Virus record (IMG/VR): IMGVR_UViG_3300033998_000099
Coordinates: 1 to 43,032 of that record
Reading direction: 5' to 3' (one strand)
DNA: 43,032 nucleotides
Source: a virus
Shown: piece after piece, positions 5,903 to 43,032 of the stretch
Numbering within the stretch: position 1 is the stretch's first letter
Layout of the letters: each line of letters opens with the position of its first letter
Notes under the pieces: generated by a model
Databases searched by the model: none
The model's input: the letters and a program-made list of their open reading frames with translations, nothing else
What the model was told of the DNA's origin: nothing
Made by a program: the position numbers and the translations under genes

Positions 5903-7399
5903 TTATACCACATACATCCAATAGCCAGAAGGTGCAGCAATAAAGATTCTAGCTTCTCCATCGTTAAGCGTGTGCATAATATTTGCGCTATGTCTATTGT
6001 GTCTAACGGTAATTGAACCAGGCCCACCTAAGTCCGCTATTATAATAGCAATTACCCCTGCAGAACTTGGTACAGGTAAAGTTAATGTTATACCGCCATG
6101 TGTAGCAACGAATATACCACCGGTAGATGGTAGCGTGCTACTGGTGGTATATTGAGTAATAGCAAACGCATTTGTGAATAGCGAAGGTAAATTAGAGATT
6201 TCAGATAAGGAGTGTTGGTGAGCAAAGTCTGTGATATCAGATTTTGTATGCTGGTGGACCAGTGCGGCTTTCCTATCAAGTTCAGTTTGCAAGTTATTAA
6301 TGTCCGAAATTTCGTGATTATGAGCGAAGTCGGTTATATCTGCTTTTTTGTGTGTATGACTAAAATCTGTAATATCTGCCTTGACGTGAGTATGCCCGAC
6401 GTCTGACTTCCCTGCCAACGCTGTATCTATCTCGGATTCTGTGTAATACCTGTCATCATGGTTATGTGAAGCAGATGGGAACGTTGAAGGGACATTTACA
6501 AGTTCAGACCAATCAATATTTCCATTTACCCACGAGGTTCCATTATACTTAACAACCTCGCCGCTTGAAGGGTTTGCAATATTTACATCAGATAAATCAT
6601 CAATCGCGTGAGTATGCGTAATATCGGATTTATTGTCAAGGGTTGATTGCAAATTATTAACATCTGAAATATCGTGTGTATGCGCAAAGTCCGTGATATC
6701 ATTACGGACATGAGTGTGAGCAAAATCCGTGATATCACTTTTAACGTGAGTATGGTCGAAATCCGTGATATCACTTTTAACATGCGTATGAGCAAAATCA
6801 GTAATATCGTTTTTAACATGAGTATGTCCTACATCTGATTTAGAATCCAATGTTTCTTGTAGATTGTCTACATCATTAATCGGATGCCGGTGTTCGAATG
6901 CAGTTTGCAATAGATAATTTTTAGCACCTTCAGCAATTATTCGATAAAGCGTAGAATTAGTGAAGCCTAATCCAGCTGCTTTCAGTTCTTCAATACGTTC
7001 CAATAACGCAGAAAAGGCTGCATTTAATTTAGATGCTGAAATCCTTTGTCCTTCAGTAAATTGAATGTCTTCTTGGTTTACACGTGTTCCATTAAAAACA
7101 ACGACATAATCATCTTTTTGAAAAGTTTGAGAATTGAGTAGTTGTATAGAAGTTTTGTAAGTTCCACCAGCATCGCGCGCAATTAATTTGAAATCTGCCG
7201 GAGACAATTCACGTCCATTAATGTAAAGCCTAAATTGTCGTTGAGAAAAGTCTGGAGCATAAACTCCTGGCTTATCTTGTGCTTCAGCTAAGGGCACAAG
7301 TATATCAGTGTCTATGGTATCTCCTTCGCGATCTATCATCAGCACTTGGAATCGCGAATCTGGATCTAAGTAAATAGTGACCTTTGATGCTGTAGCCAT
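5903..7399 (-). CDS. Tail fibre 1 with HxH repeats
   Basis: 498 aa, ATG at 7399 after AGGAGGTGATAATAA. Residues 1-150 are the collar-binding domain (LYINGRELSPADF, EDIQFTEGQRISASKLNAAF), homologous to T7 gp17 and to the next gene. The shaft, residues about 180-270 and 315-405, is built from a 12-residue repeat DITDFAHTHVKS, with frequent HTH/HNH/HQH triplets and the phage fibre motif HNHDDRYYTESEID. The C-terminal 90 residues are a compact glycine- and hydrophobic-rich tip (SITVRHNRHSANIMHTLNDG). HxH repeats in trimeric fibres (T4 gp37) bind metal ions on the axis, so this shaft may be metal-stapled. Confidence 0.9.
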   Translation of the reverse strand: MATASKVTIYLDPDSRFQVLMIDREGDTIDTDILVPLAEAQDKPGVYAPDFSQRQFRLYINGRELSPADFKLIARDAGGTYKTSIQLLNSQTFQKDDYVVVFNGTRVNQEDIQFTEGQRISASKLNAAFSALLERIEELKAAGLGFTNSTLYRIIAEGAKNYLLQTAFEHRHPINDVDNLQETLDSKSDVGHTHVKNDITDFAHTHVKSDITDFDHTHVKSDITDFAHTHVRNDITDFAHTHDISDVNNLQSTLDNKSDITHTHAIDDLSDVNIANPSSGEVVKYNGTSWVNGNIDWSELVNVPSTFPSASHNHDDRYYTESEIDTALAGKSDVGHTHVKADITDFSHTHKKADITDFAHNHEISDINNLQTELDRKAALVHQHTKSDITDFAHQHSLSEISNLPSLFTNAFAITQYTTSSTLPSTGGIFVATHGGITLTLPVPSSAGVIAIIIADLGGPGSITVRHNRHSANIMHTLNDGEARIFIAAPSGYWMYVV

Positions 7400-24282: not shown

Positions 24283-26145
24283 TTAATATAAACATGCCCC
24301 TCCGCTACAACCTGGCTCACCACTGTCCTGATTTAACAAGAGAGCGATCTTATCTAATTTCATTTGCTTTTGCCTTTTGATACCTTCTGAATATTCTTCT
24401 TTGCTAATTTCTTCAAACGGCATTTGTTTATAATGTCCCTCAGAGTCTGGTAAAATTGTAATACCAGTTGGTTTTATTGCGTAGAGCAATTTGCCAAGTG
24501 CGTTGATTTCTTCAGGTCGATAGGTGACAGTCATGCTTGGATTGTGTGTGGTGTAGTGAGTCTTTACAATTTCCCAATAATAGACCTGTTCAAGCGCATT
24601 GACATCATGCCCAAATACACTTGAAGTTGGTGACTCTTGATAGAAGGAGAAAACATAAGCATTCGCGTTGTATAAACTCTTTTCATGTTCGATACCTTGT
24701 TCAATTAAAAGTTGAGCTAACGGATCTGTTTCGCTAACAATCACACGTCTCCTGTAATACTTTGCGTATCTCGGATGGATACCACTAGCTGTTCCAACTA
24801 ATTGAGAAACTGTACCTGAAGGTTTGATACTGGTAACGCTCTTCGGGATATTGATATCAAATCTCTTAGCAAAGTCTTCAGCATAATGCCAAATAGCGCT
24901 CTTAATCATCATGAACCAAGACATAGCTTCACGTGTGCCGTACTGCAATACAGGATGGTCTCTAACACCTGTCATAGACACGCCGAGTAATCTTTCTTCT
25001 TCACTATTGATTTTCCAATCGCTGGACAGGAAAATAAAGTCCGTGAACGTTGCCTGAAGCACGCCGAATAAGGTAGCATACTTCGCTTTCCTAATCAAGT
25101 CTTCTAAAGTGTCTAATGGTCTTACCACAATTTCTGAAAGGTTGCAAAATTGTCTAGGGCGCAATATAACTTCACCACATGGATTAAGTCTATGTTCATA
25201 ACTTAAATCCCTGCCTAATCTTTCTATATCTTTTCGAACTGATTCTTCAAATAAAAATCCTCTTTCCCCTGTTCCACTAAGCACAGTGTGGTTGTATTCT
25301 TGTAAGAACTCTTCCCAAGAAATGCCTTCTGGTAAAACAACAGTGTTATTGCTAAGTGCGCGGTTAGGATGGTGTTCCCAGAACTTACCATCTTTAGCAT
25401 GCTTCATTTCTTCATCATCAAAATCAGAGAAACTAATTGTAGCGCTCCTTCTAGAACCACCAGCTACTACACAATTTGCTACGGCAACTGCCATATCGTA
25501 CAGCTCAATAGGCTTTAGCTTTCTACCGCGTGCTTCTAAGAATGTTTCAATAATGGTTTTGTGCAATTCTTTTAGCGGCTCAGGACCTGAAGCATAACCA
25601 CCAAATGTATGAAGAATAGCTCCAGCTGGTCTAATCTTTGAGTAATCAATTGATGGTATTATGCCATTATATAGATGGTCGAATAGTTCAATAATACTTT
25701 GTGCCCATCCTTCCCTTGAATCTTCCACCACAATCTTATGCTCTGGCACATTGATTAATACTTCAGGAACCTTTTGCCATTTGTTTACATATTTTCTTTC
25801 GACAGAAAATCCTACGCCACCACCACTCATTAGGATAAACATCATATCTGCTAAATCTTTTGGTCCTTCCAATGGAGTATAAGCACAATTGTAAATAGCA
25901 GCGTTGTTAAATTCTAACGCGGGACCTGCGCTCCAAAGCCCACGCATAGAAGGCATAACACCTCTATTCCTGAACTCCGCGACAGCTTCCTCAAAAAGAT
26001 CACGGAGAGATTTAGGAACACGTGGTCTCATAAAATATACCCATCGATCTATAGCTTCATCCCAAGTCTCTCGCCTTCCTAAGTCCTCTCTAAACCTGGA
26101 ATAGCTCCTGAGAAAGATAAAGTTTTGATAAGGTGTCATGTTCAT
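24283..26145 (-). CDS. nrdJ: B12-dependent ribonucleotide reductase (class II, RTPR-like)
   Basis: 620 aa monomeric-type adenosylcobalamin-dependent reductase that makes deoxynucleotides without a metal-radical partner subunit. Visible marks: SGGGVGFSVERKYV (about 108-120), VVAGGSRRSATISF (about 227-239), the active-site NPCGE (N321, thiyl C323, E325), redox cysteines C87 (AIYNCAYT) and C334 (11 residues after C323, as in Lactobacillus RTPR C408/C419), and the C-terminal shuttle pair C613/C618 (GCSGGACLY). It is shorter than RTPR (739 aa), with no ATP cone at the N-terminus. ATG at 26145 after CAGGAGGTGACTGT, overlapping the thyX end by 4 bases. Confidence 0.95.
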   Translation of the reverse strand: MNMTPYQNFIFLRSYSRFREDLGRRETWDEAIDRWVYFMRPRVPKSLRDLFEEAVAEFRNRGVMPSMRGLWSAGPALEFNNAAIYNCAYTPLEGPKDLADMMFILMSGGGVGFSVERKYVNKWQKVPEVLINVPEHKIVVEDSREGWAQSIIELFDHLYNGIIPSIDYSKIRPAGAILHTFGGYASGPEPLKELHKTIIETFLEARGRKLKPIELYDMAVAVANCVVAGGSRRSATISFSDFDDEEMKHAKDGKFWEHHPNRALSNNTVVLPEGISWEEFLQEYNHTVLSGTGERGFLFEESVRKDIERLGRDLSYEHRLNPCGEVILRPRQFCNLSEIVVRPLDTLEDLIRKAKYATLFGVLQATFTDFIFLSSDWKINSEEERLLGVSMTGVRDHPVLQYGTREAMSWFMMIKSAIWHYAEDFAKRFDINIPKSVTSIKPSGTVSQLVGTASGIHPRYAKYYRRRVIVSETDPLAQLLIEQGIEHEKSLYNANAYVFSFYQESPTSSVFGHDVNALEQVYYWEIVKTHYTTHNPSMTVTYRPEEINALGKLLYAIKPTGITILPDSEGHYKQMPFEEISKEEYSEGIKRQKQMKLDKIALLLNQDSGEPGCSGGACLY

Positions 26146-26756
26146 ACAGTCACCTCCTGAGTTAATTTTTCTTGGAAAAGTTTACCTAGTAACGCTGTTT
26201 CTTCATGATTTAAAAGTGCATCTAACATAAGTCCTGCTATTTCTTGCAGCTCTGGTTGAGCGTGTTTATCAAGTCGTACTTCTAAAAAATGGTAAAGAGA
26301 TCGTGCGTTGAATGAAATATACAACTTGGTCGTTGTCGCCATTGGTAAAACATAACGTGCTAATTCTTGCGGATATTTCTTAGAAAGCATATGGTATAGA
26401 TCTCGTGCCTGAGCAAAAAATTCTTCAATATCTTCCCACTCAGGAGCATCAGGCGGTAAGAATGAATAGAATTGCATAGTATCTAACACAACATAACGCA
26501 AAGAACGTTCAACCTTGGATATACCTATTCTATGTCGAGTAATTTGCCTTGAAGCCACCAACGAACATTCTACGTAAAAGACCATTTCTAAGAATTCGAA
26601 CGGTTCCCAATGTCCCCACTCAAACAATTTCTTTAATAATTTTGCATCCTCTTCAACAATGTCTTCTTCCTTTACACCCCTACTCATTCTCGCATAACGC
26701 GCAATGTCTTCTGAGCGACCGCCTACATATACCAATTCCACTACTGGCTTAACCAT
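26142..26756 (-). CDS. thyX: Flavin-dependent thymidylate synthase ThyX
   Basis: 204 aa, FAD-dependent conversion of dUMP to dTMP using methylenetetrahydrofolate and NADPH. The signature lies at residues 70-88: RQITRHRIGISKVERSLRYV, with RHR at 74-76 and the nucleophile-region serine at 85. The usual spacing is RHR-x7-S; here it is x8. Other family traits: LFEWGHWEPFEF (usual GH.s..Eh) and a C-terminal ARSLYHFLEVRLDKHAQPEL, matching the R-x-F-x-x-x-R-x-x-x-x-A-Q-x-E-I dUMP-binding end. ATG at 26756 follows GGAGGGGTT. Works with the reductase downstream. Confidence 0.95.
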   Translation of the reverse strand: MVKPVVELVYVGGRSEDIARYARMSRGVKEEDIVEEDAKLLKKLFEWGHWEPFEFLEMVFYVECSLVASRQITRHRIGISKVERSLRYVVLDTMQFYSFLPPDAPEWEDIEEFFAQARDLYHMLSKKYPQELARYVLPMATTTKLYISFNARSLYHFLEVRLDKHAQPELQEIAGLMLDALLNHEETALLGKLFQEKLTQEVTV

Positions 26757-29465: not shown

Positions 29466-29966
29466 TCACCCCTCCAATGTTTTTAGTAAATCTATAAGTT
29501 CATCAAGCTGTTCATAGAGCTCGACTAATGTTCCGTTGTTATCTACAATCCAGTCCCACTCAAACATGTCTACATATTTTTCAGATGGATCATTCTCGTG
29601 CTCTGGAGTATATCCTTCGCGCGAAGATCTGATTACTACATCTGCCTCAATCTTTACAGGAATAAATCCTGATCGTAATAATAACATATATTCGTTCGGA
29701 AAACGCACATCAGGTATAACCACATGATCATAAAATAACGCTTCACGCAACGCATATTTAGCCCAAACATCTGGATCTACAAGTCTTGTACCTTTGCCCA
29801 AATCAATAAGCTTCTGTCTATCTTTTTCATAAACCCCATAATATTTCTCTAAAATTTCATAAAGCGGTGTAGCTAGTGGTATTTTAGTAAAGCAATACCT
29901 TCTGACTAAATAATCCGCCGCCGTATCTTTCCCTGCTCTTTGTTTACCAAAAAACATAACCTTCAT
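29466..29966 (-). CDS. Deoxynucleoside monophosphate kinase
   Basis: 166 aa from ATG 29966 after GGAGGTGATTAC; the frame extends upstream to 29999 only across the preceding microprotein. P-loop GKQRAGKDTAADYL (about 7-20), then VIPDVRFPNEY and EHENDPSEKYVD, the family signature of phage dNMP kinases (T4 gene 1 type). It phosphorylates dNMPs, supplying dNTP synthesis and salvaging nucleotides from degraded host DNA. T7 itself lacks this enzyme in this position (it has gp1.7). Confidence 0.92.
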   Translation of the reverse strand: MKVMFFGKQRAGKDTAADYLVRRYCFTKIPLATPLYEILEKYYGVYEKDRQKLIDLGKGTRLVDPDVWAKYALREALFYDHVVIPDVRFPNEYMLLLRSGFIPVKIEADVVIRSSREGYTPEHENDPSEKYVDMFEWDWIVDNNGTLVELYEQLDELIDLLKTLEG

Positions 29967-29970
29967 GTAA

Positions 29971-30063
29971 TCACCTCCAAATTTGATAGTATTCTTCAAG
30001 CGCTATGTCAAAAGCTAAAATAGCCACTCCAGCACTAAAAAACATTAACACCCACCAAATCAT
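29971..30063 (-). CDS. 30-aa membrane microprotein
   Basis: ATG at 30063 behind AAGGAGGCGAGAAG, ending in a TGA that overlaps the ribosome site of the kinase gene. The product begins MIWWVLMFFSAGVAILAFDI, one membrane helix, and ends ALEEYYQIWR. It fills the only gap between helicase and kinase exactly, which supports reality. Function unknown; translation may couple to the kinase. Confidence 0.65.
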   Translation of the reverse strand: MIWWVLMFFSAGVAILAFDIALEEYYQIWR

Positions 30064-32164: not shown

Positions 32165-32737
32165 TTAGAATGGAACAGTGTCATCATCTTCCTGAGTAAC
32201 TACATCAGCAGTAAAACCGCTGTCAATTGGCTCGAAGACGTTTGTTAGATCTGACTTGCGTTCAGCCAGTTCCACAATTTGCACAGCTTTTAAGTAGGAA
32301 CTAACACCATAGTTAAGACCACTCAAATAAGGAGTTAATTTCACATAAAGTCTAAGCTTACTACCGTTTGGAACATAAGGGACATCTACGAGTTGCCTAT
32401 TTAAAGCATCGGCGACTAAAGGAACGTATTGGCTCTTAGCTCTGAACTGTAGATACCCTGTTTCTTCATCATCGATAATCTCAGGAGTAATCAAAGGGAA
32501 GTGCTGTAATCTCGCTTGCTTAGCTTTAGGCACTCCTTTAAGTATTTGTGCAATCATCTCTTGTTCAAGTTGTTCGATTTCATCGATAAACTTTGCGTGT
32601 TCATCATTTTCGGGATCCAGAACTAAGACCACTTGGTATTTGCCCCATTTCGGATCTGGTTCTTTAAGTGCTACAAACTTTGCGGGAGCAATCGGTGTAA
32701 GCTTATAAACTTCTTCTACTTTTTTCTTGCCAGCCAC
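32165..32737 (-). CDS. Single-stranded DNA-binding protein (T7 gp2.5-like)
   Basis: 190 aa (T7 gp2.5 232), GTG start at 32737 after AGGAGGACTGATAGC. An OB-fold type domain with KWGKYQVVLVLDPEND and KLRLYVKLTPYLSGLNYGVS, and the typical acidic tail ending in phenylalanine (QEDDDTVPF), which in gp2.5 contacts the polymerase and helicase. Placed just before endonuclease I, the T7 order. The last residue F is essential in T7 and is present here. Confidence 0.9.
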   Translation of the reverse strand: MAGKKKVEEVYKLTPIAPAKFVALKEPDPKWGKYQVVLVLDPENDEHAKFIDEIEQLEQEMIAQILKGVPKAKQARLQHFPLITPEIIDDEETGYLQFRAKSQYVPLVADALNRQLVDVPYVPNGSKLRLYVKLTPYLSGLNYGVSSYLKAVQIVELAERKSDLTNVFEPIDSGFTADVVTQEDDDTVPF

Positions 32738-32741
32738 GCTA

Positions 32742-33116
32742 TCAGTCCTCCTTTTTCTCCTTTAAGTTTATCACGTAATACCACCCATGGTTTGGAATAT
32801 AAACAACTGAAACTTTGTAATGCAAAAGGAACCCATCCAAGTTAGCACCATAAGCTATAGAGCTTAATATATAAGCTGCGCTTGCATTTGGATCTTCTAG
32901 CTTTTCTATAACATCGTAAAATTGGGTGGCGCATGTAGCGAAAAAGTCTTCACGGTCTTTCTCATGCTCTTCTTTGTCAGTAATCAATACATGCTCATGT
33001 GTTTCTAAAACCTCTTTACCTTCTTCCTCAGTTAATTCTAGGTAATCCCCACTCCAGCCTAAAAACTGCGAGTAAGGATATAAATCAAATTCATCATATG
33101 CATTCTTCCTCATCAT
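32742..33116 (-). CDS. Tandem paralog 3 (unknown family)
   Basis: 124 aa, acidic and aromatic; ATG at 33116 (or 33113) behind AAGGAGATAAAAGCG. Shares with its two upstream neighbours an N-terminal RKNAYDEF, a W.GDYLELTEEE segment, an ITDK turn, a DREDFFATCATQFYDVIEKL helix, and a C-terminal VVYIPNHGWYYVINL strand. Overlaps the upstream gene by 23 bases. No known fold or motif recognised. Located between RNA polymerase and SSB, where T7 has host-interaction genes such as gp2. Confidence 0.85.
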   Translation of the reverse strand: MMRKNAYDEFDLYPYSQFLGWSGDYLELTEEEGKEVLETHEHVLITDKEEHEKDREDFFATCATQFYDVIEKLEDPNASAAYILSSIAYGANLDGFLLHYKVSVVYIPNHGWYYVINLKEKKED

Positions 33117-33531
33117 CGCTTTTATCTCCTTCCATGCTTTTTACTCTGCTAGCAAAATACCAGCCCTCACAAGGAATATAAATAATATCTGCTGAAGCAA
33201 CTTCTAAAAGCCTATCAATAATAGGTTTACTTCCTTCCAATGCTTCAGTTAGATACTCTAACAATGCTTGCGCGCCAAACTTCACACCAACGAAAAATAT
33301 ACTAGCAGCAAACATTGTGCCTAAGAAATCATCTTTGTTTAATGCGTAAAACGGTTTATCTGTAATTATCCATGAGTCATCGGTTACATAGTATTTTTCT
33401 GCTTCTTCTTTGTTAAGATGCACGTAATCACCACCCCAAACCATGTTAAGATCCACGTAATCACCACCCCAAACTATATAGTTGTTTTCATGTGTCCACC
33501 CAGTTTCTGCAAAAATGTTCTTTTTTACCAT
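33094..33531 (-). CDS. Tandem paralog 2 (unknown family, with internal duplication)
   Basis: 145 aa from ATG 33531 (ribosome site GGGGGAGTGAGT); a GTG two codons earlier is possible. Same plan as its neighbours: KKNIFAETGW, the unit VWGGDYVDLN repeated twice in tandem (33-bp direct repeat in DNA), IITDKP, LNKDDFLGTMFAASIFFV, then IIYIPCEGWYFASRV. The hydrophobic stretch after DDF is longer than in the others. C-terminus acidic (DKSDDEEECI). Function unknown. Confidence 0.87.
   Translation of the reverse strand: MVKKNIFAETGWTHENNYIVWGGDYVDLNMVWGGDYVHLNKEEAEKYYVTDDSWIITDKPFYALNKDDFLGTMFAASIFFVGVKFGAQALLEYLTEALEGSKPIIDRLLEVASADIIYIPCEGWYFASRVKSMEGDKSDDEEECI
33421..33486. repeat. 33-bp direct repeat inside tandem paralog 2
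   Basis: CACGTAATCACCACCCCAAA occurs at 33421 and again at 33454. It keeps frame and duplicates eleven residues (VWGGDYV[D/H]LN plus one). A recent in-frame slippage event. Confidence 0.9.
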
Positions 33532-33533
33532 AC

Positions 33534-33911
33534 TCACTCCCCCTTTACTTTTTCTGTAAAATTAATTACAAACCACCAGCTATCCTCTGCGTGTACCACC
33601 GCTATGTTATACATTTCCAAGATATCATCAATAGGATAAGTGTCGATTAGGCTTAGCATTGCAAAACTTATTAAATTTCCAACCGCCTCATCTCCTAAAT
33701 CCTCAAGGACCGTAAATAGCGCCCTAACCATAGTTCTAAAGAAATCATCACGCCCTAACTTATCTACTGGTAAAGGTGTAATTTGATAAGCCCCTTCTTT
33801 TTCAAGTATATTCCAAGCCTCATCCTCATCAAGCGAATAGTAATTTCCATCCCATTCAAAACCAAGAACTTCTTCCCATCCAAGTTCCTCATAAATGTTT
33901 TTCCTTTCCAC
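33534..33911 (-). CDS. Tandem paralog 1 (unknown family)
   Basis: 125 aa from GTG 33911, nine bases after AGGAGG; an ATG at 33929 lies inside the RNA polymerase end with no ribosome site of its own. ERKNIYEELGWEEVLGFEW then DGNYYSLDEDEAW, ITPLPVDKLGRDDFFRTMVRAL and IAVVHAEDSWWFVINF follow the pattern of the two genes downstream. First gene after the RNA polymerase, so likely read by both host and phage polymerase. Function unknown. Confidence 0.85.
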   Translation of the reverse strand: MERKNIYEELGWEEVLGFEWDGNYYSLDEDEAWNILEKEGAYQITPLPVDKLGRDDFFRTMVRALFTVLEDLGDEAVGNLISFAMLSLIDTYPIDDILEMYNIAVVHAEDSWWFVINFTEKVKGE

Positions 33912-33925
33912 TCTAATCAACCTCC

Positions 33926-36190
33926 TCATCCAAAGAAATAGGGAGCCTTCAAAATTTCCTCTGGATTAAACTCGCCCCTGTATGGAGGCTCTGGTAGTTT
34001 AACACCATACTCTTTTTCCCAAAATGCTTTCTGTTCTAGTAGTATAGGCACGCTATACATTTCCGCAAAGGTTTCTCTGATAATCTTTTGAAGCTCCGCA
34101 ATATGGTCTGGATGCGCTCCGAAACTGTCATGTTGTACAAGAATAGGCTTTTGGAAACGTTGCACAATCTTCACTAAGTGCGCGGCATCCAGTGAATGGA
34201 TATAGTTAGGACTAATTGCTAATTTCATTTTACGTTTCAATAATCCATTTTCAGGACTATTGCGCGGGTAATACACACGCAAAGTCCTTTGTCCAAATGT
34301 TGTGCGCAAACGGTGCACTACAGCTTTCCAATATGCTTGGTTCACTTCAAAAGAGCTTGGAGTTATCCATCTAACAGGCTTGCCTATCTTCTCTACCGCA
34401 GTTTGGAACCATTTTAATAAATCCAATGGCACAAGTTCCTGTAGGGCTTGGTAAATCTTCTGCGTGATGTAATTTACCATTTCAAATATGTGGCCCCTAA
34501 AAAATCCAAGCCCATATTCTTTCATAATGAATTCTAAGTTCTGGTCCACCATGCCAGGGAATGTTACTGAATAAGGGTATGTCATAACATTGCGTTTTAC
34601 AAGACTTCTTGTCACCCCCTTCTCTAACCAGAACAGTTTCTCGCGCTGATGGTGGATATCTGTATCTTCCTGGACTAGCTCATACGTTCGCTTTGCTACA
34701 ACTTCATAGATATCGTAAACCTTATCCTCGGATGTCATGTTTACGTATTTATTGTTAAACCCCTGCAAGGCGGACAAATGTTGTGTACCATTGTTGGAAC
34801 CATCCACTTGCACTATTACGCCCACAGGCTCACCCTCAAGAGCCTTCACATATTCTTTACACAAATGAACGAACTGATAAGGCTCAGAGGTGCGCCTTAT
34901 CTCATGCATGTAATCTTCCGGATTTGACCCTATCTCAAGAATTAAATCTTCGTTCTCTTCAAACCAGGCAAGCCTTTGCGCGTACGTTCTTTTGTCCAGC
35001 CCATACGCATTAGCAATCCCAATTTTTAACCAACGCCAACCTTCTTCTGTCTCAATCGGTTTCTTCTTTGCAAATTCGAGCATGCCTTTAACATAGTCAG
35101 GACCTTGTGGATTAATGTATGCGCCAGAATAATACATCCTACCTCTAAAATCTACATATACAGGGAAATACATCTCCTCATCCTCATACTCATGTGCTAA
35201 GCGCTTCATAAAGGTATAAGATATCCACAGTCCTTGAGCTCTGTTCTTGTTAGCGTAGTATTCCCGCATTCTATACTTAAATTCTTTCTTCATTTCAGGG
35301 GTAGCGTTGGAGGGCTTTATAGGCTTCATAAAAGTTTCAGGTTTAGGAAATACCAGCTGTTGCGTTTCTAACGTCCATTCAAAAAAGTCCAGCATATCCT
35401 TGTTAACTTTATACGGTACGGACTGCACAAAGTTCGCTGCATCAAGCCATTCGCCCCCTTTTATGGGAGCCTTCATCTTTATACCATGGACTAACTGTAG
35501 TGGTAATGAGATATAACCACCTTCCACAACCTTGCCGTTCTCCAGGCGCCAATCTATCGGTGGCACTACCATCGGTTTATAAAATGGGCGAGGCATATCT
35601 TTTTCTTGGAATAGCTTTATGATATCAGGATTGATATGCATAAGCTTCACGGAGCGCCTACCATGCGGAGCTTTTGTTTCATAAATCAGTCCCGCATGAT
35701 ATAACAGGGCATAAAACCTGAAGCCGAGCCTGAAAGCATCAATGTCAGGCACTTCCAGATACTGCTTCGCGTTCTCCTTTATAATCCTATGCACAATATG
35801 CGGGCGATATGCCTTAGCGTACTCCCACACAATCTTATATTGCTTCGGTGGCATGTTGAAAATACCAAGCTGGTACAGCAATGCATGCCCCATTTCTTTG
35901 ATAACTGCTTGTCGACTTGCACCTTCTTTATTTATTGCAACTTCTAGTGCTATGTCTACCAAAGTTAACCATTGTTTTTGCGTTAAATCCTTCAATACAG
36001 GGATTAAATCCCCGAAAGGTACTGTAAAAGCATCTTCCTGCAACCAAGATTTGATGTTCTCTACCAAAGTAGGTGCAAAAGTCGAAATTAACAAACCTTG
36101 TTTTCTTACTAACAGAGGAGTGCGCTCTAGTCTTTGCGCCCCCTCTTCCCACATAAATCCTTCTAACTCAAGCTCTCTGTCTAACCCGAT
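33926..36190 (-). CDS. Single-subunit phage RNA polymerase (T7 gp1-like)
   Basis: 742 aa counted from the first ATG (36154); T7 has 883. Catalytic marks by that count: D451 (VQVDGSNNGTQHLSA), R516/K520/Y528 (RSLVKRNVMTYPY), H653 (ISPNYIHSLDAAHL) and D676 (LVQHDSFGAHPD), plus the FRGRMYYSG segment near 336-344; these equal T7 D537, R627, K631, Y639 and D812. Start: the frame stays open 12 codons upstream to an ATC at 36190, five bases after a perfect GGAGGTGA and four after the stop of a 49-aa gene; the added GLDRELELEGF resembles the family's N-terminal start region. No ATG, GTG or TTG exists there. I give 36190, with 36154 as the conventional alternative. Confidence 0.93.
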   Translation of the reverse strand: MGLDRELELEGFMWEEGAQRLERTPLLVRKQGLLISTFAPTLVENIKSWLQEDAFTVPFGDLIPVLKDLTQKQWLTLVDIALEVAINKEGASRQAVIKEMGHALLYQLGIFNMPPKQYKIVWEYAKAYRPHIVHRIIKENAKQYLEVPDIDAFRLGFRFYALLYHAGLIYETKAPHGRRSVKLMHINPDIIKLFQEKDMPRPFYKPMVVPPIDWRLENGKVVEGGYISLPLQLVHGIKMKAPIKGGEWLDAANFVQSVPYKVNKDMLDFFEWTLETQQLVFPKPETFMKPIKPSNATPEMKKEFKYRMREYYANKNRAQGLWISYTFMKRLAHEYEDEEMYFPVYVDFRGRMYYSGAYINPQGPDYVKGMLEFAKKKPIETEEGWRWLKIGIANAYGLDKRTYAQRLAWFEENEDLILEIGSNPEDYMHEIRRTSEPYQFVHLCKEYVKALEGEPVGVIVQVDGSNNGTQHLSALQGFNNKYVNMTSEDKVYDIYEVVAKRTYELVQEDTDIHHQREKLFWLEKGVTRSLVKRNVMTYPYSVTFPGMVDQNLEFIMKEYGLGFFRGHIFEMVNYITQKIYQALQELVPLDLLKWFQTAVEKIGKPVRWITPSSFEVNQAYWKAVVHRLRTTFGQRTLRVYYPRNSPENGLLKRKMKLAISPNYIHSLDAAHLVKIVQRFQKPILVQHDSFGAHPDHIAELQKIIRETFAEMYSVPILLEQKAFWEKEYGVKLPEPPYRGEFNPEEILKAPYFFG

Positions 36191-36650: not shown

Positions 36651-36997
36651 ACGTTCACTCCTTCCTCCTCTTCTGATTGTAAATCTAAAATAATTGCTAA
36701 CATACTTATTATAACTTTACCAACAAAATCAGGTAAGAACTTAATGGATTGATACTCATCAAAAATTATATCTCCCATAGCTTGTTTGACATAATCTCCC
36801 TTGTCTATTGAGACTTCAAGTACAATTTGTCGTATCTCTCGCGCAAATCCTTGCCTATCTTCTACTACTGCAAAATTTGTGAGAGCATAGCAAAAACTTC
36901 CATCATCATCTTCCCAAAGCTTGACTGCAATTTCATCACGTTTCATCAAAGCTTTATACAATTTAGCTAGCGCTTCTAAATCAATCTTCCCCAGCAT
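36647..36997 (-). CDS. Early protein, unknown
   Basis: 116 aa, ATG at 36997 after AGAGAGGGACAACG. Begins MLGKIDLEALAKLYKALMKR, has a central beta part (DDGSFCYALTNFAVVEDRQG) and ends in a hydrophobic helix and acidic tail (VIISMLAIILDLQSEEEEG). Overlaps its upstream neighbour by 17 bases and its downstream neighbour by 4. No known family recognised. Confidence 0.8.
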   Translation of the reverse strand: MLGKIDLEALAKLYKALMKRDEIAVKLWEDDDGSFCYALTNFAVVEDRQGFAREIRQIVLEVSIDKGDYVKQAMGDIIFDEYQSIKFLPDFVGKVIISMLAIILDLQSEEEEGVNV

Positions 36998-37307
36998 CGT
37001 TGTCCCTCTCTTTCAAGTAAGGTAGAGTTTCATTAAAGAAGTACTCTACAAAATCGTTTATAGAGTCAATATTACTCCTATACCATTCCTTCCTGAAATC
37101 CGTGATGTATTCTTCGAAATCTTCACCATAACCATAATCTTCAAACAAGCGTCGAGCATCATCATAAGATAACCCATCAGCTATAGCAAGGTGTATAATC
37201 AATGGTTCATATCTGGCTTGCAATCCGCTTTCTTCCAAAACCTTTTTTAATTCTTTCAAAAATTTTTCCTCTGTACTTCTTGTCCCTACGAAAATTCCTA
37301 TCATCAT
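36981..37307 (-). CDS. Early protein C (second cassette)
   Basis: 108 aa from the first of two ATGs (37307), behind GGAGGTGAG; the frame runs upstream through the promoter and should not be used. MMIGIFVGTRSTEEKFLKEL and YEPLIIHLAIADGLSYDDAR, then EDFEEYI. The order EP-x-hydrophobic, LA..xG(I/L)(S/T).(D/E).(A/V)R.L, DFEEYI parallels the 39020-39274 gene, supporting a diverged copy. Has its own promoter immediately upstream. Function unknown. Confidence 0.82.
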   Translation of the reverse strand: MMIGIFVGTRSTEEKFLKELKKVLEESGLQARYEPLIIHLAIADGLSYDDARRLFEDYGYGEDFEEYITDFRKEWYRSNIDSINDFVEYFFNETLPYLKERDNDAGED

Positions 37308-37322
37308 CTCACCTCCACTTTT

Positions 37323-37352
37323 ATTATACCACAGCCCTCTATCTCCTGTCAA
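37323..37352 (-). promoter_or_regulatory. Host-type promoter P-C
   Basis: Minus strand TTGACA, 18-bp spacer, TATAAT, with TG one base before the -10 (extended -10). It gives a very short leader to the ATG at 37307. Confidence 0.85.
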
Positions 37353-37364
37353 GTTAATTTTCTG

Positions 37365-37664
37365 TTAATTTTTATTTACGCCAATCCATACTAGCTTTTT
37401 CCTTTCTTTCTTAAATTTAAACTTCTTCAATACCTTTACAGCTTCTTTAGGTGAAAACACATCCCCTAAATACGCTGTCTGATTGCCTTCTTCATCGTAC
37501 ACAAAAATCCCCCTTTTATCCTGGTCGCGCCATTCACGCGCCTGCGTATCAAACCACTGCCTACTTAATAGCACAATCGAATACCCCTTCCGCACTAATG
37601 TTATATCCAAGCTTAAAAGCCACCAGTCATGGAGTAGCTTTTTCTCTGGCTGCTTTAACCACAT
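37365..37664 (-). CDS. Early protein B (second cassette)
   Basis: 99 aa, ATG at 37664 after AGGAGGTGGAAAG. Aromatic and basic: LLHDWWLLSLDITLVRKGYS, then IVLLSRQWFD, RGIFVYDEEGNQTAYLGDVF and KEAVKVLKKFKFKK. It aligns along its length with the 39268-39555 gene (LI/D..W..D.DI...RK.Y.(I)VLES..W, ...(I)VVYD...., .A.(E).LKKL). Follows protein A. Unknown function; small antiparallel beta domain plus helix suggested. Confidence 0.83.
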   Translation of the reverse strand: MWLKQPEKKLLHDWWLLSLDITLVRKGYSIVLLSRQWFDTQAREWRDQDKRGIFVYDEEGNQTAYLGDVFSPKEAVKVLKKFKFKKERKKLVWIGVNKN

Positions 37665-37688
37665 CTTTCCACCTCCTACCCATTTTCA

Positions 37689-37711
37689 ACGGCAAGGGCG
37701 CGCCTCGCCGT
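37689..37711 (-). terminator. Hairpin between proteins A and B (weak terminator or processing site)
   Basis: ACGGC-A-AGG, GCGCG loop, CCT-C-GCCGT, one internal mismatch, just after the stop of protein A. No T run follows on the minus strand, so it may attenuate or be an RNase III-type processing site. Confidence 0.5.
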
Positions 37712-37712
37712 A

Positions 37713-38078
37713 TTAATAACGTTCAATTATCACGTAAACACCTTTATCCACTACGTAGAGAACGACCCAATCGCCAGCTGAGACCCTATCTACAAGCCAA
37801 GCACTTGCATCAATGTAGTTCTCTAACTCTTCAGGATAATTGTAAAGGTCTGCTAAGAAATATTCAATTACTAAATCTTCAACGTATTCACGCAAATCTG
37901 ATATCCATTTAAACACATGAAGCATATATTTGTAATCAATACTCTGTAAATACCTGGCAAGGTCGCGAATATCTTCAAAAGCTTCAAGCACTTCTTTATC
38001 CAAACGTAGATAATCCGCTAAATCCTCGTAGTGTTCCACCGGTACAAAATCCATTATTAAATCATAATTCCATAACAT
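37713..38078 (-). CDS. Early protein A (second cassette)
   Basis: 121 aa, acidic, helical, Y/D/L-rich. ATG at 38078 behind AGAAGGAGGTTGATAAA. Start MLWNYDLIMDFVPVEHYEDL; C-terminus YIDASAWLVDRVSAGDWVVL then YVIIERY. The C-terminal 35 residues match the 39657-39971 protein (E.YIDAS.WL.D.V..G...Y......YVII), and the ribosome site with 30 bases of leader is nearly identical between the two genes. Likely host-takeover protein by position; not recognised. Confidence 0.85.
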   Translation of the reverse strand: MLWNYDLIMDFVPVEHYEDLADYLRLDKEVLEAFEDIRDLARYLQSIDYKYMLHVFKWISDLREYVEDLVIEYFLADLYNYPEELENYIDASAWLVDRVSAGDWVVLYVVDKGVYVIIERY

Positions 38079-38118
38079 TTTATCAACCTCCTTCTCCCTT
38101 CTCTCGTTGCCCGCTTAT

Positions 38119-38147
38119 ATTATATACAGGGTTCTATGTGTTGCCTT
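38119..38147 (-). promoter_or_regulatory. Host-type promoter P-A with decayed -35
   Basis: TATAAT at 38119-38124 on the minus strand; the hexamer 17 bp upstream is AAGGCA, only half matching TTGACA. The flanking ATAGAACC and the whole leader match the intact promoter at 40012-40041, so this is probably the weakened copy. Confidence 0.55.
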
Positions 38148-38187
38148 CCTTATACCTAGAGAAACGGGAGCTTAGCGCCCCCTTCTG

Positions 38188-38592
38188 TTATTCACCTAAA
38201 TCAATAATTAGTTTCTCTAGTGAGCTACCATTTAATACTTTATCTATAAACTCTAAGTATTCCTCTTTCTGGTCCCAAATATTGGCCATAAGATGTCCTA
38301 AAACAATACGACCATCATTGCATACTATAAAATTCCAGTCTGAATCTGCATTTGATGTTATTTCTAGATGGTCCTCTGCTTCTTTTAAAAATCTCTGTAA
38401 ATTTGTCACTTGTTCTCTCCAACATGCCTCAGTTTTTAATTCGTTGGCATCCTTGTTTTCTACGTGTTTAATCACCTCTGCACTTATTAGTAAAACACTA
38501 ACATCATCTTGTAAAAAATCGTATTTTCTATACAAAGAGTCTGTAGGAATGGCACTTACAACACTTTTTCCTTCTAATTTCCTCACGTGCAT
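38188..38592 (-). CDS. Early protein, unknown
   Basis: 134 aa, ATG at 38592 after AGAGGAGGGGATAAG. Begins MHVRKLEGKSVVSAIPTDSL, then a helical region (ANELKTEACWREQVTNLQRF) and a small beta part DSDWNFIVCNDGRIVLGH. Acidic C-terminus (LEKLIIDLGE). No paralog or known domain recognised. It has its own promoter and roughly 110-nt leader. Confidence 0.8.
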   Translation of the reverse strand: MHVRKLEGKSVVSAIPTDSLYRKYDFLQDDVSVLLISAEVIKHVENKDANELKTEACWREQVTNLQRFLKEAEDHLEITSNADSDWNFIVCNDGRIVLGHLMANIWDQKEEYLEFIDKVLNGSSLEKLIIDLGE

Positions 38593-38707
38593 CTTATCCC
38601 CTCCTCTATAGTTTTATAACCACAAACTTTTCTTCTATAGTTTCCCCATCTCACCCACCAAGTTTTCTATTCACTCTTCAAAGGCCCTCTCGCACCTTCC
38701 GCTTATA

Positions 38708-38736
38708 TTTATACCACAGTCTTCCCTAGATGTCAA
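38708..38736 (-). promoter_or_regulatory. Host-type promoter P-D
   Basis: Minus strand TTGACA, 17-bp spacer, TATAAA with TGG before it. Drives the 38188-38592 gene. Confidence 0.85.
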
Positions 38737-38828
38737 GTTACACGTATGTAACAAAAATGTTTCAAGAATATTCCGGAAAATGGTCTCAGGTTCTGTGGGT
38801 CAGAATTGTATATCTAAAGCCTTTTAAA

Positions 38829-38942
38829 AATGCCCGTCAGACGCTCTAGAATCCACAAGAAGGGCCTTTGTCGGACGAAGATGATATTTTATATATCCCT
38901 AAACTAAAACAGGCCTTAAAATTGATTTAAACGTGAGTTTTC
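38829..38942 (+). repeat. Dispersed inverted repeat, copy 1
   Basis: Diverged match, same length within one base, to the reverse strand of 42242-42356. Shared blocks in order: AATGCCC, AGAC, TAGAATC, TTTTATATATCCC, CTTAAAATYGATTTAAACG and GAGTTWTC. Similarity may extend left to 38814. Confidence 0.8.
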
Positions 38943-38989
38943 TATATATAGTATGTCTAGGTTTAAACATACTATATATAGTGTGTCTA
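38942..38989 (-). promoter_or_regulatory. Two 18-bp repeats, possible phage RNA polymerase promoters
   Basis: On the minus strand TAGACATACTATATATAG (38942-38959) and TAGACACACTATATATAG (38972-38989), 30 bp apart. They resemble the T7 promoter core GACTCACTATAGGG in spacing and the ACTATA block. The left repeat also pairs with the CATACTATATATAG of the spacer as a 15-bp palindrome, so a hairpin or protein site is another reading. Confidence 0.4.
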
Positions 38990-39000
38990 ATAAAAGAAAA

Positions 39001-39018
39001 GGCCTGCTTTTGCAGGCC
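39001..39018 (-). terminator. Terminator after early protein C'
   Basis: GGCCTGC, AAAA loop, GCAGGCC, then TTTTCTTTTA on the minus strand, starting one base after the stop of the 39020-39274 gene. Confidence 0.9.
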
Positions 39019-39019
39019 G

Positions 39020-39274
39020 TTATTTTTCACCTAAAACTTCTTGAATAAACTCTTCAAATTGCTCTAATAATCCACTATAAAACACCAACCACAAGTCTCT
39101 TACCTGCTCTTCTGTTATCCCGTATTTTTCTGCTAGTTGTGTAGTGACTTCAGGTTCAAAGGCTTCCATTAAATCGTATATAAATATATCTTCTGTTTTT
39201 AAAAAGTTTTCAATAATCTCTTTTATAGCTTTAGCAGTAGGTTTGTCTTTTACATAAGTAACAACTTTTAACAT
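39020..39274 (-). CDS. Early protein C' (first cassette)
   Basis: 84 aa, ATG at 39274 after GAAGGTGGATACAC, overlapping the end of B' by 7 bases. MLKVVTYVKDKPTAKAIKEI, FEPEVTTQLAEKYGITEEQV, then EQFEEFIQEVLGEK. Very acidic, helical. The second half parallels protein C at 36981-37307. A terminator follows. Function unknown. Confidence 0.83.
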   Translation of the reverse strand: MLKVVTYVKDKPTAKAIKEIIENFLKTEDIFIYDLMEAFEPEVTTQLAEKYGITEEQVRDLWLVFYSGLLEQFEEFIQEVLGEK

Positions 39275-39555
39275 GTGTATCCACCTTCTTTTCTTATTTC
39301 AGTTATTGATAATTTTTTTAGTGTTTCTATAGCTTGTTCGGCATCTTCCGCTATATCGACAATTGTAGCATATCCAAACTTATTGTCGTATACAACTATA
39401 TCTCTTTGAGAAACATAGTGTCGTATCGTGCAGTTGTTTGAATACCATGTTTTACTTTCTAATACAACTATATAGTCTTTTCTGTAAATTTCAATATCAA
39501 AATCACTTCTCCAAGCATCATCAATTAAGCTTTTCTCGTCTTCTCTCAGTTTCAT
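39268..39555 (-). CDS. Early protein B' (first cassette)
   Basis: 95 aa, ATG at 39555 after GGAGGTGGTAAA. KSLIDDAWRSDFDIEIYRKD, YIVVLESKTWYSNN, RDIVVYDNKFGYATIVDIAE, EQAIETLKKLS. Paralog of 37365-37664 along nearly its whole length. Own promoter just upstream. Unknown function. Confidence 0.84.
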   Translation of the reverse strand: MKLREDEKSLIDDAWRSDFDIEIYRKDYIVVLESKTWYSNNCTIRHYVSQRDIVVYDNKFGYATIVDIAEDAEQAIETLKKLSITEIRKEGGYTC

Positions 39556-39605
39556 TTTACCACCTCCATTCTTGAGTTTGCAAGTTTCTTGCTTGCTACA
39601 CTTTT

Positions 39606-39634
39606 ATTTTACCAGATTTTCAAATTTTTGTCAA
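39606..39634 (-). promoter_or_regulatory. Host-type promoter P-B'
   Basis: Minus strand TTGACA, 17-bp spacer, TAAAAT with TGG ahead; AT-rich upstream stretch with A tracts (UP-like). Leader carries a small hairpin GCAAG/CTTGC. Nearly the same sequence as the promoter at 40731-40758. Confidence 0.9.
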
Positions 39635-39656
39635 GCGTTTTAATGTAAAATTTTTG

Positions 39657-39971
39657 TTAACTTTTGCGTGCGTATATAATCACATAGGTATTTTTCTCGT
39701 TGATTTTATATACTTCTAATAAGCCCTCTTTAACTACATCTGCCAGCCAGTAGCTAGCGTCAATGTATTCTTCTATGTATTCTATGTATTTACTAAAACA
39801 ATACACCTTCCGAATTAATCCCTCTGTATAATCAATAAGTTGTTTTATTCCTTCAAGGTAGACCACCGCATAATCAATGTCTGCATCGTCTAATTCTTCT
39901 AAGTATTCCTGCAACTCCTTATCGGAGATTTTTTTAACCACCTTTTCTACTTGACTGTCTAGCCATAACAT
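39657..39971 (-). CDS. Early protein A' (first cassette)
   Basis: 104 aa from ATG 39971 (AAGGAGGTTGATAAA); the frame extends into the leader but that part matches leader sequence of gene A. MLWLDSQVEKVVKKISDKEL, acidic helices, then YIDASYWLADVVKEG and NTYVIIYARKS. Paralog of 37713-38078, with the conserved C-terminal YIDAS.WL.D block. Unknown function. Confidence 0.85.
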   Translation of the reverse strand: MLWLDSQVEKVVKKISDKELQEYLEELDDADIDYAVVYLEGIKQLIDYTEGLIRKVYCFSKYIEYIEEYIDASYWLADVVKEGLLEVYKINEKNTYVIIYARKS

Positions 39972-40011
39972 TTTATCAACCTCCTTCTCCCTTCTCTCGT
40001 TGCACACTTCT

Positions 40012-40041
40012 ATTATATCAAGGTTCTATGGCTTCTGTCAA
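40012..40041 (-). promoter_or_regulatory. Host-type promoter P-A'
   Basis: Minus strand TTGACA, 18-bp spacer, TATAAT, TGA before the -10. The leader from ATAGAACC to the ribosome site is shared with gene A. Confidence 0.88.
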
Positions 40042-40676: not shown

Positions 40677-40730
40677 CTTGACCAGCCTCCTTCTTTAATT
40701 TTTTTGCAAGCTTCAGCTTGCTACACTTTT

Positions 40731-40758
40731 AGTGTACCAGATTTTACACTTTTGTCAA
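40731..40758 (-). promoter_or_regulatory. Host-type promoter P-E
   Basis: Minus strand TTGACA, 16-bp spacer, TACACT with TGG ahead, A-rich upstream region. The leader has a hairpin GCAAGC-TGAA-GCTTGC. Confidence 0.85.
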
Positions 40759-40911
40759 GCCTTTTAATGTTAAATTTTTGTAAACTTTTCCGCGCGTTTT
40801 CTAATTTTTTAGAATTGTTTTGCGCGCGTTTTATTCTTCGGCTTTTCATAGGTTAACCAGTGTTTATACGTGCCAGTCTTAGACTTGCGCGCGTGTTTAT
40901 TTTTTGCTACT

Positions 40912-40929
40912 CGCGCGCCCTTGCGCGCG
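40912..40929. repeat. Perfect GC hairpin
   Basis: CGCGCGC-CCTT-GCGCGCG, an unusual stem in low-GC DNA, with no T tract on either side. Confidence 0.7.
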
Positions 40930-41004
40930 CACTTAATAGCTTATTGTGAATGTATCTTTAGGTTGTTAGTGTTTAACGAATGAGTCGTAAGCTTGGCAAA
41001 GGTC

Positions 41005-41087
41005 AGCTTAGGCGTACGTTGGACATAAAAACGCATGTACAAGGATAGCTTAGGCGTACGTTAGACATAAAAACGCACGCACAAGGA
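41005..41087. repeat. Two 41-bp direct repeats, period 42
   Basis: AGCTTAGGCGTACGTTRGAC then ATAAAAACGCAYGYACAAGGA, at 41005-41045 and 41047-41087, differing at three positions. Each contains the palindrome CGTACG. Iteron-like. Confidence 0.92.
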
Positions 41088-41497
41088 CACTGCCCTGCGC
41101 ATGCGTTGGCCGCGCACCTGGCGCACACCTAGGACCGCACGAGGCAGGCGATATAGATACATGAGGCGGGTTTTGCTTGAGGTAGAGTTGTCCGCGCAGC
41201 GGACACCGCTTGGATTTCTCTTGCTGAGCATGAGGCAGTCCTGAGGCGCGCTTAAAGCATACCCTATGGGGGAATACACCCTGCGCGGAGCGCGATGAGA
41301 TGCGCTCAGAAATTTTTGCAATATTTTTGCACTTTGGAGCGCACTCCTACGCTCGCCAAATGCCTACGCTTGCCGCGCGGCGCGTACCTGAGCTGTACGC
41401 CCCTCCTAGGAACCACCCCATTGATGCAACATAAAGTTAACAAACGAGAAACATAGTTATGATCATGTTACACTGTGTATATATATTTATATATATT

Positions 41498-41717
41498 TAT
41501 ATATAACTATAAGCTTACTATAGGTTACTAAGACTACTAAGAGCTACTATAAGCAATTGAAAGCATAAGTAATTAATTTAATTTCTTTGCTTATAGTAAG
41601 TCTTAGTGTATATATAACTATAAGCTTACTATATGCTACTAAGACTACTAAGAGCTACTATAAGCAATTGAAAGCATAAGTAATTAATTTAATTTCTTTG
41701 CTTATAGTAAGTCCTAG
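41498..41717. repeat. AT-rich 111-bp tandem repeat
   Basis: Two copies (41498-41606 and 41609-41717), period 111, differing at only a few positions. Each holds inverted arms TACTATAAGC / GCTTATAGTA and the run TAATTAATTTAATT. Just left is TATATATATTTATATATATT. Candidate replication origin. Confidence 0.93.
41589..41608 (-). promoter_or_regulatory. T7-promoter-like motif in the tandem repeat
   Basis: Minus strand TAAGACTTACTATAAGC; T7 is TACGACTCACTATAGGG. A second copy (CTAGGACTTACTATAAGC) lies at 41700-41717. Candidate site for the phage RNA polymerase, perhaps priming replication. Confidence 0.4.
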
Positions 41718-41736
41718 AACATGAAGAATCTTTATG

Positions 41737-42114
41737 TTATTCTTCAGCAAGTCCTTGTATTACACCTGGTGCTTTTTTACGTGCATGAATTTCAAAAGGA
41801 TTGTAAAAGTAAGCTTTAAAATAAGCATCTTTCCAGTTTCTTAGCTTAATGATGAAGTACACGAATTGCACAACAAAGAATCCGGAGTATAGCACAATGA
41901 ATATCAATGGACTAAGCATGCGCGCCTGTAGCAAGTGCACACGTTCGTGTTTCAGAACAGCTTCCAGTAAGTAGTGGTTTCGTTCAAGTGTAGCATCCAG
42001 GAAGATTAGGGGTGCGATAGCCATGCCTAGGATTTTGCCTCTGAAATTTATGAATACGTGCACCTCAGCAAAACTAAACACCCAGGTTATAATCCAAATT
42101 GCAATTAGCCACAT
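41737..42114 (-). CDS. Small membrane zinc metallopeptidase (HExxH)
   Basis: 125 aa from ATG 42114, nine bases after GGGGGTG; a GTG at 42126 is also in frame. An N-terminal membrane helix (residues about 2-18), then LKHERVHLLQ with the zinc-binding HERVH at 56-60, a second hydrophobic stretch 66-90, and YNPFEIHARKK, where Glu 108 could be the third ligand (as in NPxE-x-EA ends of gluzincin-like membrane peptidases). Substrate unknown. It is separated from the neighbouring late gene by a palindrome-rich leader. It may act on the host envelope or process a phage protein; both are guesses. Confidence 0.72.
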   Translation of the reverse strand: MWLIAIWIITWVFSFAEVHVFINFRGKILGMAIAPLIFLDATLERNHYLLEAVLKHERVHLLQARMLSPLIFIVLYSGFFVVQFVYFIIKLRNWKDAYFKAYFYNPFEIHARKKAPGVIQGLAEE

Positions 42115-42145
42115 CAAGGTTCTCACCCCCGAATATTTTGCCTCT

Positions 42146-42347
42146 GAGACCGCGTAGAATCGATTTTAAGCATGGGTTAGGGCAGTTGTACGTATGAAAT
42201 ACTATCCGCACTCCTAAGCCAGCCTTAAAATCGATTTAAAAGATAACTCGCGTTTAAATCGATTTTAAGCAGGGGTTAAGTGGGCGGGATATATAAAAGT
42301 ATATCCACGCCCTTGACCCTGGCTTAAAATTGATTCTACGCAGTCTC
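42146..42347. repeat. Nested palindromes around AATCGATTTTAAG motifs
   Basis: Outer arms 42146-42171 and 42322-42347 (26 bp, 2 mismatches). Inside, CTTAAAATCGATTTAAA (42224-42240) pairs perfectly with 42253-42269, and GGATATA/TATATCC (42287-42306) forms a third stem. A further pair GCCCTTGA/TCAAGGGC spans 42308-42352. No T run, so not an ordinary terminator. Confidence 0.9.
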
Positions 42348-42356
42348 AAGGGCATT
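42242..42356 (-). repeat. Dispersed inverted repeat, copy 2
   Basis: Reverse-strand counterpart of 38829-38942 with the same ordered blocks and nearly equal length. Confidence 0.8.
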
Positions 42357-42367
42357 CTAATTTGGGT

Positions 42368-42610
42368 TTAGGACTTGGATTTTTTATAGCTGTTTAGAAG
42401 TCTCTCTGCTTTCGCTGCGACTTGTTTGTAACCGTGCATTCTGGCAAGTCTTAGGGCGCTTCGGAGTGCGTTAATGTTTACTTGCCCTTTTTGCACACCT
42501 CTCCATTCTTTGATTGGGAACTTCTTCTGGCTTGGTAGCAAGAAGTAGCTATCTGGTAGTTTCTTTCTAACTGATTGAGGAGGCGCTTTCCATGGTTTAT
42601 TTACAGCCAT
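42368..42610 (-). CDS. 80-aa basic protein at the end of the late unit
   Basis: ATG at 42610 after AAAGGAGGTGTTAAC. MAVNKPWKAPPQSVRKKLPD, SYFLLPSQKKFPIKEW, then NINALRSALRLARMHGYKQV and AERLLNSYKKSKS. The L-P-x-S-x-F-x-L-P-x-x-x-x-(Y/F)-P-I motif followed by an ALRxAL-type helix is seen in small domains of other phage proteins (DUF6582-like), from memory. Basic, probably nucleic-acid or capsid associated, role unknown. Starts 13 bases after the proline-rich gene stops. Confidence 0.8.
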   Translation of the reverse strand: MAVNKPWKAPPQSVRKKLPDSYFLLPSQKKFPIKEWRGVQKGQVNINALRSALRLARMHGYKQVAAKAERLLNSYKKSKS

Positions 42611-42623
42611 GTTAACACCTCCT

Positions 42624-43032
42624 TTACGGCATTATCTTTAGATATGGAGTTAACGTTCTTGTAATATAGTTACTGCCAAGTAACGGTTTTGTTACTGGCT
42701 TACTAGGTTGCTTAGGAACGCGCTTTGTTTGTTTTTTTACTGGTTCGATTGGCTTTGGTTGTGGCTTTACTGGTTCGCCAGGTAGCCCAGGAACGAGCTT
42801 TACTAGCTCAATTGGTTTTGGTCGTAGCTTTGGTGGTGTTGGTTGTGGCTCTACTAGCTCGATTGGTTTTGGTTGTGGCTTTGGTTGTGGCTTTACTGGC
42901 TCAATTGGCTTTGGTTGTGGCTTTACTGGCTCAATTGGCTTTGGTTGTGGCTTTACTGGCTCAATTGGCTTTGGTTGTGGCTTTACTGGCTCAATTGGCT
43001 TTGGTTGTGGCTTTACTGGCTCAATTGGCTTT
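42624..43032 (-). CDS. Proline-rich repeat protein, C-terminal part (starts outside the window)
   Basis: The frame is open from 43032 and stops at TAA 42624-42626. It has at least five IEPVKPQPKP units, then variant blocks (KPIELVEPQPTPPKLRPKP, LVKLVPGLPGEPVKPQPKP) not present in the left copy, then VKKQTKRVPKQP and the end SNYITRTLTPYLKIMP. Same gene as 1-488; the two ends cannot be joined without ambiguity because repeat numbers and the spacer differ. Followed by the 80-aa gene. Confidence 0.8.
   Translation of the reverse strand, partial: KPIEPVKPQPKPIEPVKPQPKPIEPVKPQPKPIEPVKPQPKPIEPVKPQPKPQPKPIELVEPQPTPPKLRPKPIELVKLVPGLPGEPVKPQPKPIEPVKKQTKRVPKQPSKPVTKPLLGSNYITRTLTPYLKIMP
42661..42773. 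repeat. Terminal direct repeat of the contig (right copy)
   Basis: Identical to 1-113. Beyond it the right end carries sequence variants absent from the left end. Confidence 0.9.
42877..43032. repeat. 30-bp tandem array running off the window
   Basis: About 5.2 units of the same 30-bp repeat as at 91-210; the contig ends inside the array. Confidence 0.95.

Follow-up and report, generated by a model that had tools for sequence, protein, structure and literature searches.

Gene array between the RNA polymerase and SSB genes

The window analyzed here is a virus record of 43,032 bp, taken at its full length. On its minus strand, three small genes (hereafter A, B, and C) lie in tandem between the genes that encode a T7-type single-subunit RNA polymerase (RNAP) and a gp2.5-like SSB (Table 1). 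The gene order in this operon is RNAP-A-B-C-SSB-endonuclease-primase, with the array next to RNAP, as the earlier note on this DNA had it, and the gaps between these genes from RNAP through SSB are too short to hold a promoter. Shine-Dalgarno sequences precede all three starts (AGGAGG, GGGGGA, and AAGGAG, respectively) and were used to pick the preferred start codons, which put the N-termini in register (M-E-R-K-N-I-Y, M-V-K-K-N-I-F, and M-M-R-K-N-A-Y). The copies had also been described as overlapping each other. This holds for B and C, which share 23 nt such that the start and Shine-Dalgarno sequence of C sit within the last codons of B. For A and B, it holds only if B starts at its GTG (4-nt overlap); otherwise these two genes are 2 nt apart. 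Similarly, the RNAP gene and A overlap by 4 nt only with the ATG start of A, and the GTG start, which is favored by its Shine-Dalgarno sequence, leaves a 14-nt gap. All three products are acidic (pI 4.3–4.5, about -10 to -12.5 charges per 100 residues). A similar charge is found in several further small early products of the phage, so the acidity points to nothing specific.

Table 1. Positions of the A-B-C genes, their neighbors, and associated sequence features in the window.
Feature	Position	Strand	Description
T7-type single-subunit RNA polymerase	33926..36154	-	phrog_414, E = 1.5e-150; upstream neighbor, same operon
Gene A, first copy	33534..33911	-	125 aa; GTG 33911 behind AGGAGG; pI 4.3
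Gene A, longer ORF	33534-33929	-	131 aa if ATG 33929 is used
Gene B, second copy	33094..33531	-	145 aa; ATG 33531 preferred; pI 4.3
Gene B, longer ORF	33094-33537	-	147 aa from GTG 33537
In-frame 33-bp tandem duplication in B	33411..33476	-	two copies, 94% identical
Gene C, third copy	32742..33116	-	124 aa; ATG 33116
gp2.5-like SSB	32165..32737	-	phrog_112, E = 1e-20; downstream neighbor, 4 bp after C
Nearest strong sigma-70-like promoter	37323..37352	-	TTGACA, 18 nt, TATAAT, 12/12; ~1.2 kb upstream of RNAP

Genome organization and phage affiliation

The genes for RNAP, SSB, endonuclease I, primase-helicase, and DNA polymerase are all on the minus strand in a T7-like order, as are those for thymidylate synthase, ribonucleotide reductase, head-tail adaptor, and terminase. 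The single-subunit T7-type RNAP and the T7-like order of the replication and head genes (matches to phrog_414, 112, 945, 239, 17, and 449) place the phage in Autographiviridae. The DNA polymerase has a top identity of about 41–45% among GenBank phages and the retrieved IMG/VR loci, the RNAP is 27–28% identical to T7-like RNAPs, and no close relatives by RNAP or primase were found in IMG/VR. Judged by these genes and their order, the phage is a divergent T7-like podovirus of Autographiviridae. Pseudomonas phage LUZ100 and marine podoviruses (of Roseobacter and Pelagibacter, and cyanophages) have the same core genes in the same order, with DNA polymerases up to about 41–45% identical to that of the window phage; neither tblastn against GenBank phages nor the IMG/VR loci examined gave an A-B-C homolog.

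Several other features of the genome were recorded. A ribonucleotide reductase gene (phrog_367) adjoins a ThyX-like thymidylate synthase gene (phrog_85) beside the head genes (24283-26756). A 177-aa protein with a P-loop-like GKQRAGKDTAADYL motif is encoded between DNA polymerase and primase (29466-29999) and is perhaps a nucleoside monophosphate kinase. Within a 498-aa ORF (5903-7399), there is a 36-bp tandem repeat of ~4 copies (6678-6826). A region of ~1 kb without confident genes (40677-41736) contains one tandem repeat of 42 bp and another of 111 bp (97% identity in the 111-bp repeat) together with an AT-rich stretch, and is possibly an origin or end-processing region. Direct and inverted repeats around AATCGATTTTAAGC at 42113-42380 are in part common to 38894-38943. 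Both record ends (1-548 and 42624-43032) lie in the same 30-bp tandem repeat, and a 318-aa frame with PIEPVKPQPK repeats spans the join of these ends. The record may thus be a circular permutation, or its ends may come from a cut within a repeat gene. No RNA families or tRNAs were found in the window.

Paralogy, divergence, and predicted fold

Pairwise identities among A, B, and C are 26–33% over ~120 codons. The Smith-Waterman scores of the three pairs (118, 139, and 119) are far above those of shuffled sequences (means ~31, sd 5.5; Z = 15.7, 20.1, and 16.0, respectively), none of 2,000 shuffles reached them, and unrelated proteins of the window score 56 or less. A profile built from A, B, and C matches exactly three sites in the genome, which are the three genes themselves (each E < 1e-57). 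Chance similarity is ruled out by the shuffle scores, and the proposal that three tandem paralogs lie between RNAP and SSB is thus confirmed. The motifs listed in the earlier note are correct in outline and require amendment in two copies: C has EEG rather than EEA and EDFF rather than DDFF, and A has ITP rather than ITD and ends in SWWF rather than GWYF. Residues invariant in the alignment include K, N, W, G, Y, L, E, I-T, D-F, and a C-terminal W; the invariant set is mainly aromatic or hydrophobic, with scattered K, N, E, T, and D, and neither Cys nor His is conserved.

Codon positions 1 and 2 agree in 48–56% of cases between copies, compared with 33–40% for position 3, and the pairs have dN of 0.73–0.83 with dS either saturated or about 1.4. 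The copies are therefore old and the protein has been under constraint, and the codon pattern is consistent with purifying selection at the protein level. The suggestion in the earlier note of a rapidly evolving family does not follow from such old, saturated copies, and the searches gave no ortholog from which to take a rate. The origin of the array appears best explained by two rounds of tandem gene duplication. Within B, the copies of the 33-bp duplication encode VWGGDYV(D/H)LNM, doubling the conserved W.GDY..L strand, and coincide with the large gap opposite B in the three-protein alignment. From the sequences, this duplication is the single clearly recent event in the array.

Duplication is not confined to this locus. 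A two-gene block upstream of RNAP (36981-40041, minus strand) is present in duplicate, pairing 37365-37664 with 39268-39555 (Smith-Waterman Z = 17.7) and 37713-38078 with 39657-40007 (Z = 10.5). The start regions of the block share a 61-bp stretch with 92% identity, and sigma-70-like promoters of the block are near-duplicates (37352 with 40041); the promoters at 39634 and 40758 form another near-duplicate pair. The A-B-C triplication is therefore one case of a general tendency of the genome rather than a peculiarity of the RNAP neighborhood. Profile comparison found no relationship between A-B-C and other early-region paralog families.

AlphaFold2 models of C (pLDDT 82, pTM 0.79) and A (pLDDT 79, pTM 0.76) have the same order of elements, namely strand, helix, strand, helix, strand, two long helices, a short helix, and a beta hairpin, although both were built from one shared three-row alignment and so do not test the fold independently. 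The C-terminal hairpin bears the GWY motif. On the alignment and these predicted folds, A, B, and C are one family of small acidic alpha/beta proteins. Foldseek returned no significant match (best PDB E = 1.4 for C and 1.7 for A; 1.1 among viral models), and known DNA mimics are absent among the listed PDB matches.

Searches for homologs

No homologs of A, B, or C were found in Pfam, PHROGs, NCBIfam, PADLOC, or PDB sequences, in GenBank phages by tblastn, or in IMG/VR and GTDB genomes by peptide or DNA pattern scans. Among the IMG/VR loci of DNA-polymerase relatives, the window's own copies alone score with the A-B-C profile. Records very close to the window may be absent from these searches, and distant relatives escape pattern scans; within this scope, the earlier statement that the family has no recognized homolog stands. 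All candidates were rejected. PHROG 12936 (labelled minor tail protein, 134 positions) matches A weakly (E = 0.016; 0.006 in one genome) and neither B nor C, and its profile also matches in two of 14 control genomes. Streptomyces phage matches to about 32–45 residues of A (GenBank tblastn, E = 2–8) were taken as chance, and the annotated one falls inside a 245-aa protein. An IMG/VR match (L070 113-331; profile E = 0.019) is limited to the helical middle, has no W.GDY motif, and sits ~4 kb upstream of that phage's RNAP match. Finally, collection scans with the degenerate pattern KN[IA][YF].E...W.G[DN]Y returned five stretches, none of which is a relative.

The RNAP-SSB slot and its transcription

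In those retrieved IMG/VR loci where RNAP and SSB were both identifiable, the two are separated by 13–57 bp in most relatives and by up to ~550 bp in a few, compared with ~1.19 kb in the window phage. This difference suggests that the array is probably lineage-specific. Upstream of RNAP, four sigma-70-like sites scoring at least 11/12 (37352, 38736, 39634, and 40041) occur on the minus strand between 36.1 and 42.4 kb, against 0.22 expected; all four are on the coding strand, and a fifth site (40758) scores 10/12. A terminator scan from the 37352 promoter to A-B-C found a single weak site (35708). Taken together, the upstream promoters and the near lack of terminators make early transcription of A-B-C by the host RNAP likely. 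No repeated phage-RNAP promoter motif was found; duplicated host-type promoters alone turned up.

Possible functions of the A-B-C family

In T7-like phages, the slot after RNAP carries gp1.1, gp1.2, gp1.7, and gp2, of which gp1.2 is a dGTPase inhibitor and gp2 a host RNAP inhibitor (PMC4925675). Published accounts treat the early blocks as host-takeover genes and as the stretch where these genomes are most diverse (PMC10134795, PMC7693777), and small genes vary across the early and middle blocks of T7-like phages (PMC7693777). The gp2 of a Citrobacter phage (72 aa, pI 4.5) lies directly before gp2.5 (PMC4925675). Similar to A, B, and C, T7 gp2 is small, acidic, and encoded between RNAP and SSB, and it is the last gene before SSB, as is C, which ends 4 bp before that gene. 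However, T7 gp2 is 64–72 aa long and single-copy, whereas A, B, and C are 124–147 aa long and present in three copies, and none of them matches the gp2 family (Pfam RNA polymerase inhibitor) in hmmscan against Pfam at E up to 10. T7 gp2 binds the beta' jaw of bacterial RNAP and inhibits transcription. T7 gp1.2 and other gp1.1–1.8 genes likewise occupy the slot downstream of RNAP, are small, and in several cases lack a known function, although they have no sequence match to A, B, or C and gp1.2 is single-copy. The T7 slot also holds DNA ligase, a nucleotide kinase, and genes without known function, so the slot position can mislead on function.

The best-supported reading, to which we assign a little less than an even chance, is that A-B-C are early, acidic, non-enzymatic host-takeover binders that were duplicated and diverged in the position of T7 gp1.1–gp2. 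A gene for one small acidic alpha/beta protein would have been duplicated twice in tandem between RNAP and SSB, and its copies would be expressed early, through linked translation and through read-through of transcription that begins at host-type promoters upstream of RNAP. The products would most likely be non-enzymatic binders, inhibiting or redirecting host proteins as the phage takes over the cell, by analogy with some T7 gp1.1–gp2 genes such as those for gp1.2 (dGTPase inhibitor) and gp2 (host RNAP inhibitor), and the three probably split their targets among themselves or diversified them. A, B, and C showed no catalytic motif. Operon position and composition make a host interaction plausible, and from these sequences we infer the early timing, the host target, the absence of catalysis, and the division of labor alike. 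A bolder version, in which A-B-C are a new fold family whose tandem duplication beside RNAP gave three target-diversified host-shutoff or anti-defense proteins, with the recognition strand of B still duplicating, seems unlikely.

An anti-defense role is about equally doubtful. A-B-C would then be, for example, acidic DNA mimics that block restriction or DNA-targeting defense and were multiplied to meet several host systems. Their acidity, early position, and copy number are in line with this, and T7 early proteins include the anti-restriction protein gp0.3 Ocr (PMC4925675). Ocr resembles A, B, and C in being a small acidic early phage protein but differs in genome position; anti-restriction genes are normally at the entry end, and A-B-C come after the polymerase. 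No Pfam, PADLOC, or PHROG match points to an Ocr-type mimic, no PDB fold match was better than E = 1.4, and no known mimic is among the listed Foldseek matches. The charge density of Ocr is far above that of A, B, and C. Somewhat less probable still is that A-B-C regulate the phage's own RNAP from the same transcript, tuning or retargeting it much as T7 lysozyme inhibits T7 RNAP. Gene A lies directly downstream of RNAP, at ~14 nt or less, so these two genes are probably linked in translation. It is this adjacency that the polymerase-interacting role suggested in the earlier note would draw on. Nearby relatives that carry this type of RNAP lack any gene between it and SSB, so such a partner is not generally required by the RNAP.

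The same comparison bears on a role as replication or recombination accessories that work with the downstream SSB, endonuclease, and primase. SSB begins 4 bp after C, and the operon continues with the whole replication block, but relatives with this block lack A-B-C genes and no replication family in Pfam or PHROGs is similar to A, B, or C, making this role quite improbable. That the array is duplicated filler in a variable slot, with little or no function, would agree with the common duplication in this genome and the empty slot in most relatives. The three frames have all stayed intact through long divergence, show protein-level constraint, and retain conserved motifs and ribosome-binding sites, such that this explanation is very hard to sustain.

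T7-like phages fill the stretch after RNAP with small proteins, of which some disable host functions and many have no known target. The A-B-C family is real and well defined, yet it is ordinary phage dark matter, one more orphan family of the early region. As a three-copy orphan family, it would provide a compact test of how host-directed proteins are built by duplication, and A, B, and C may serve as three natural variants that can be compared in one binding assay.
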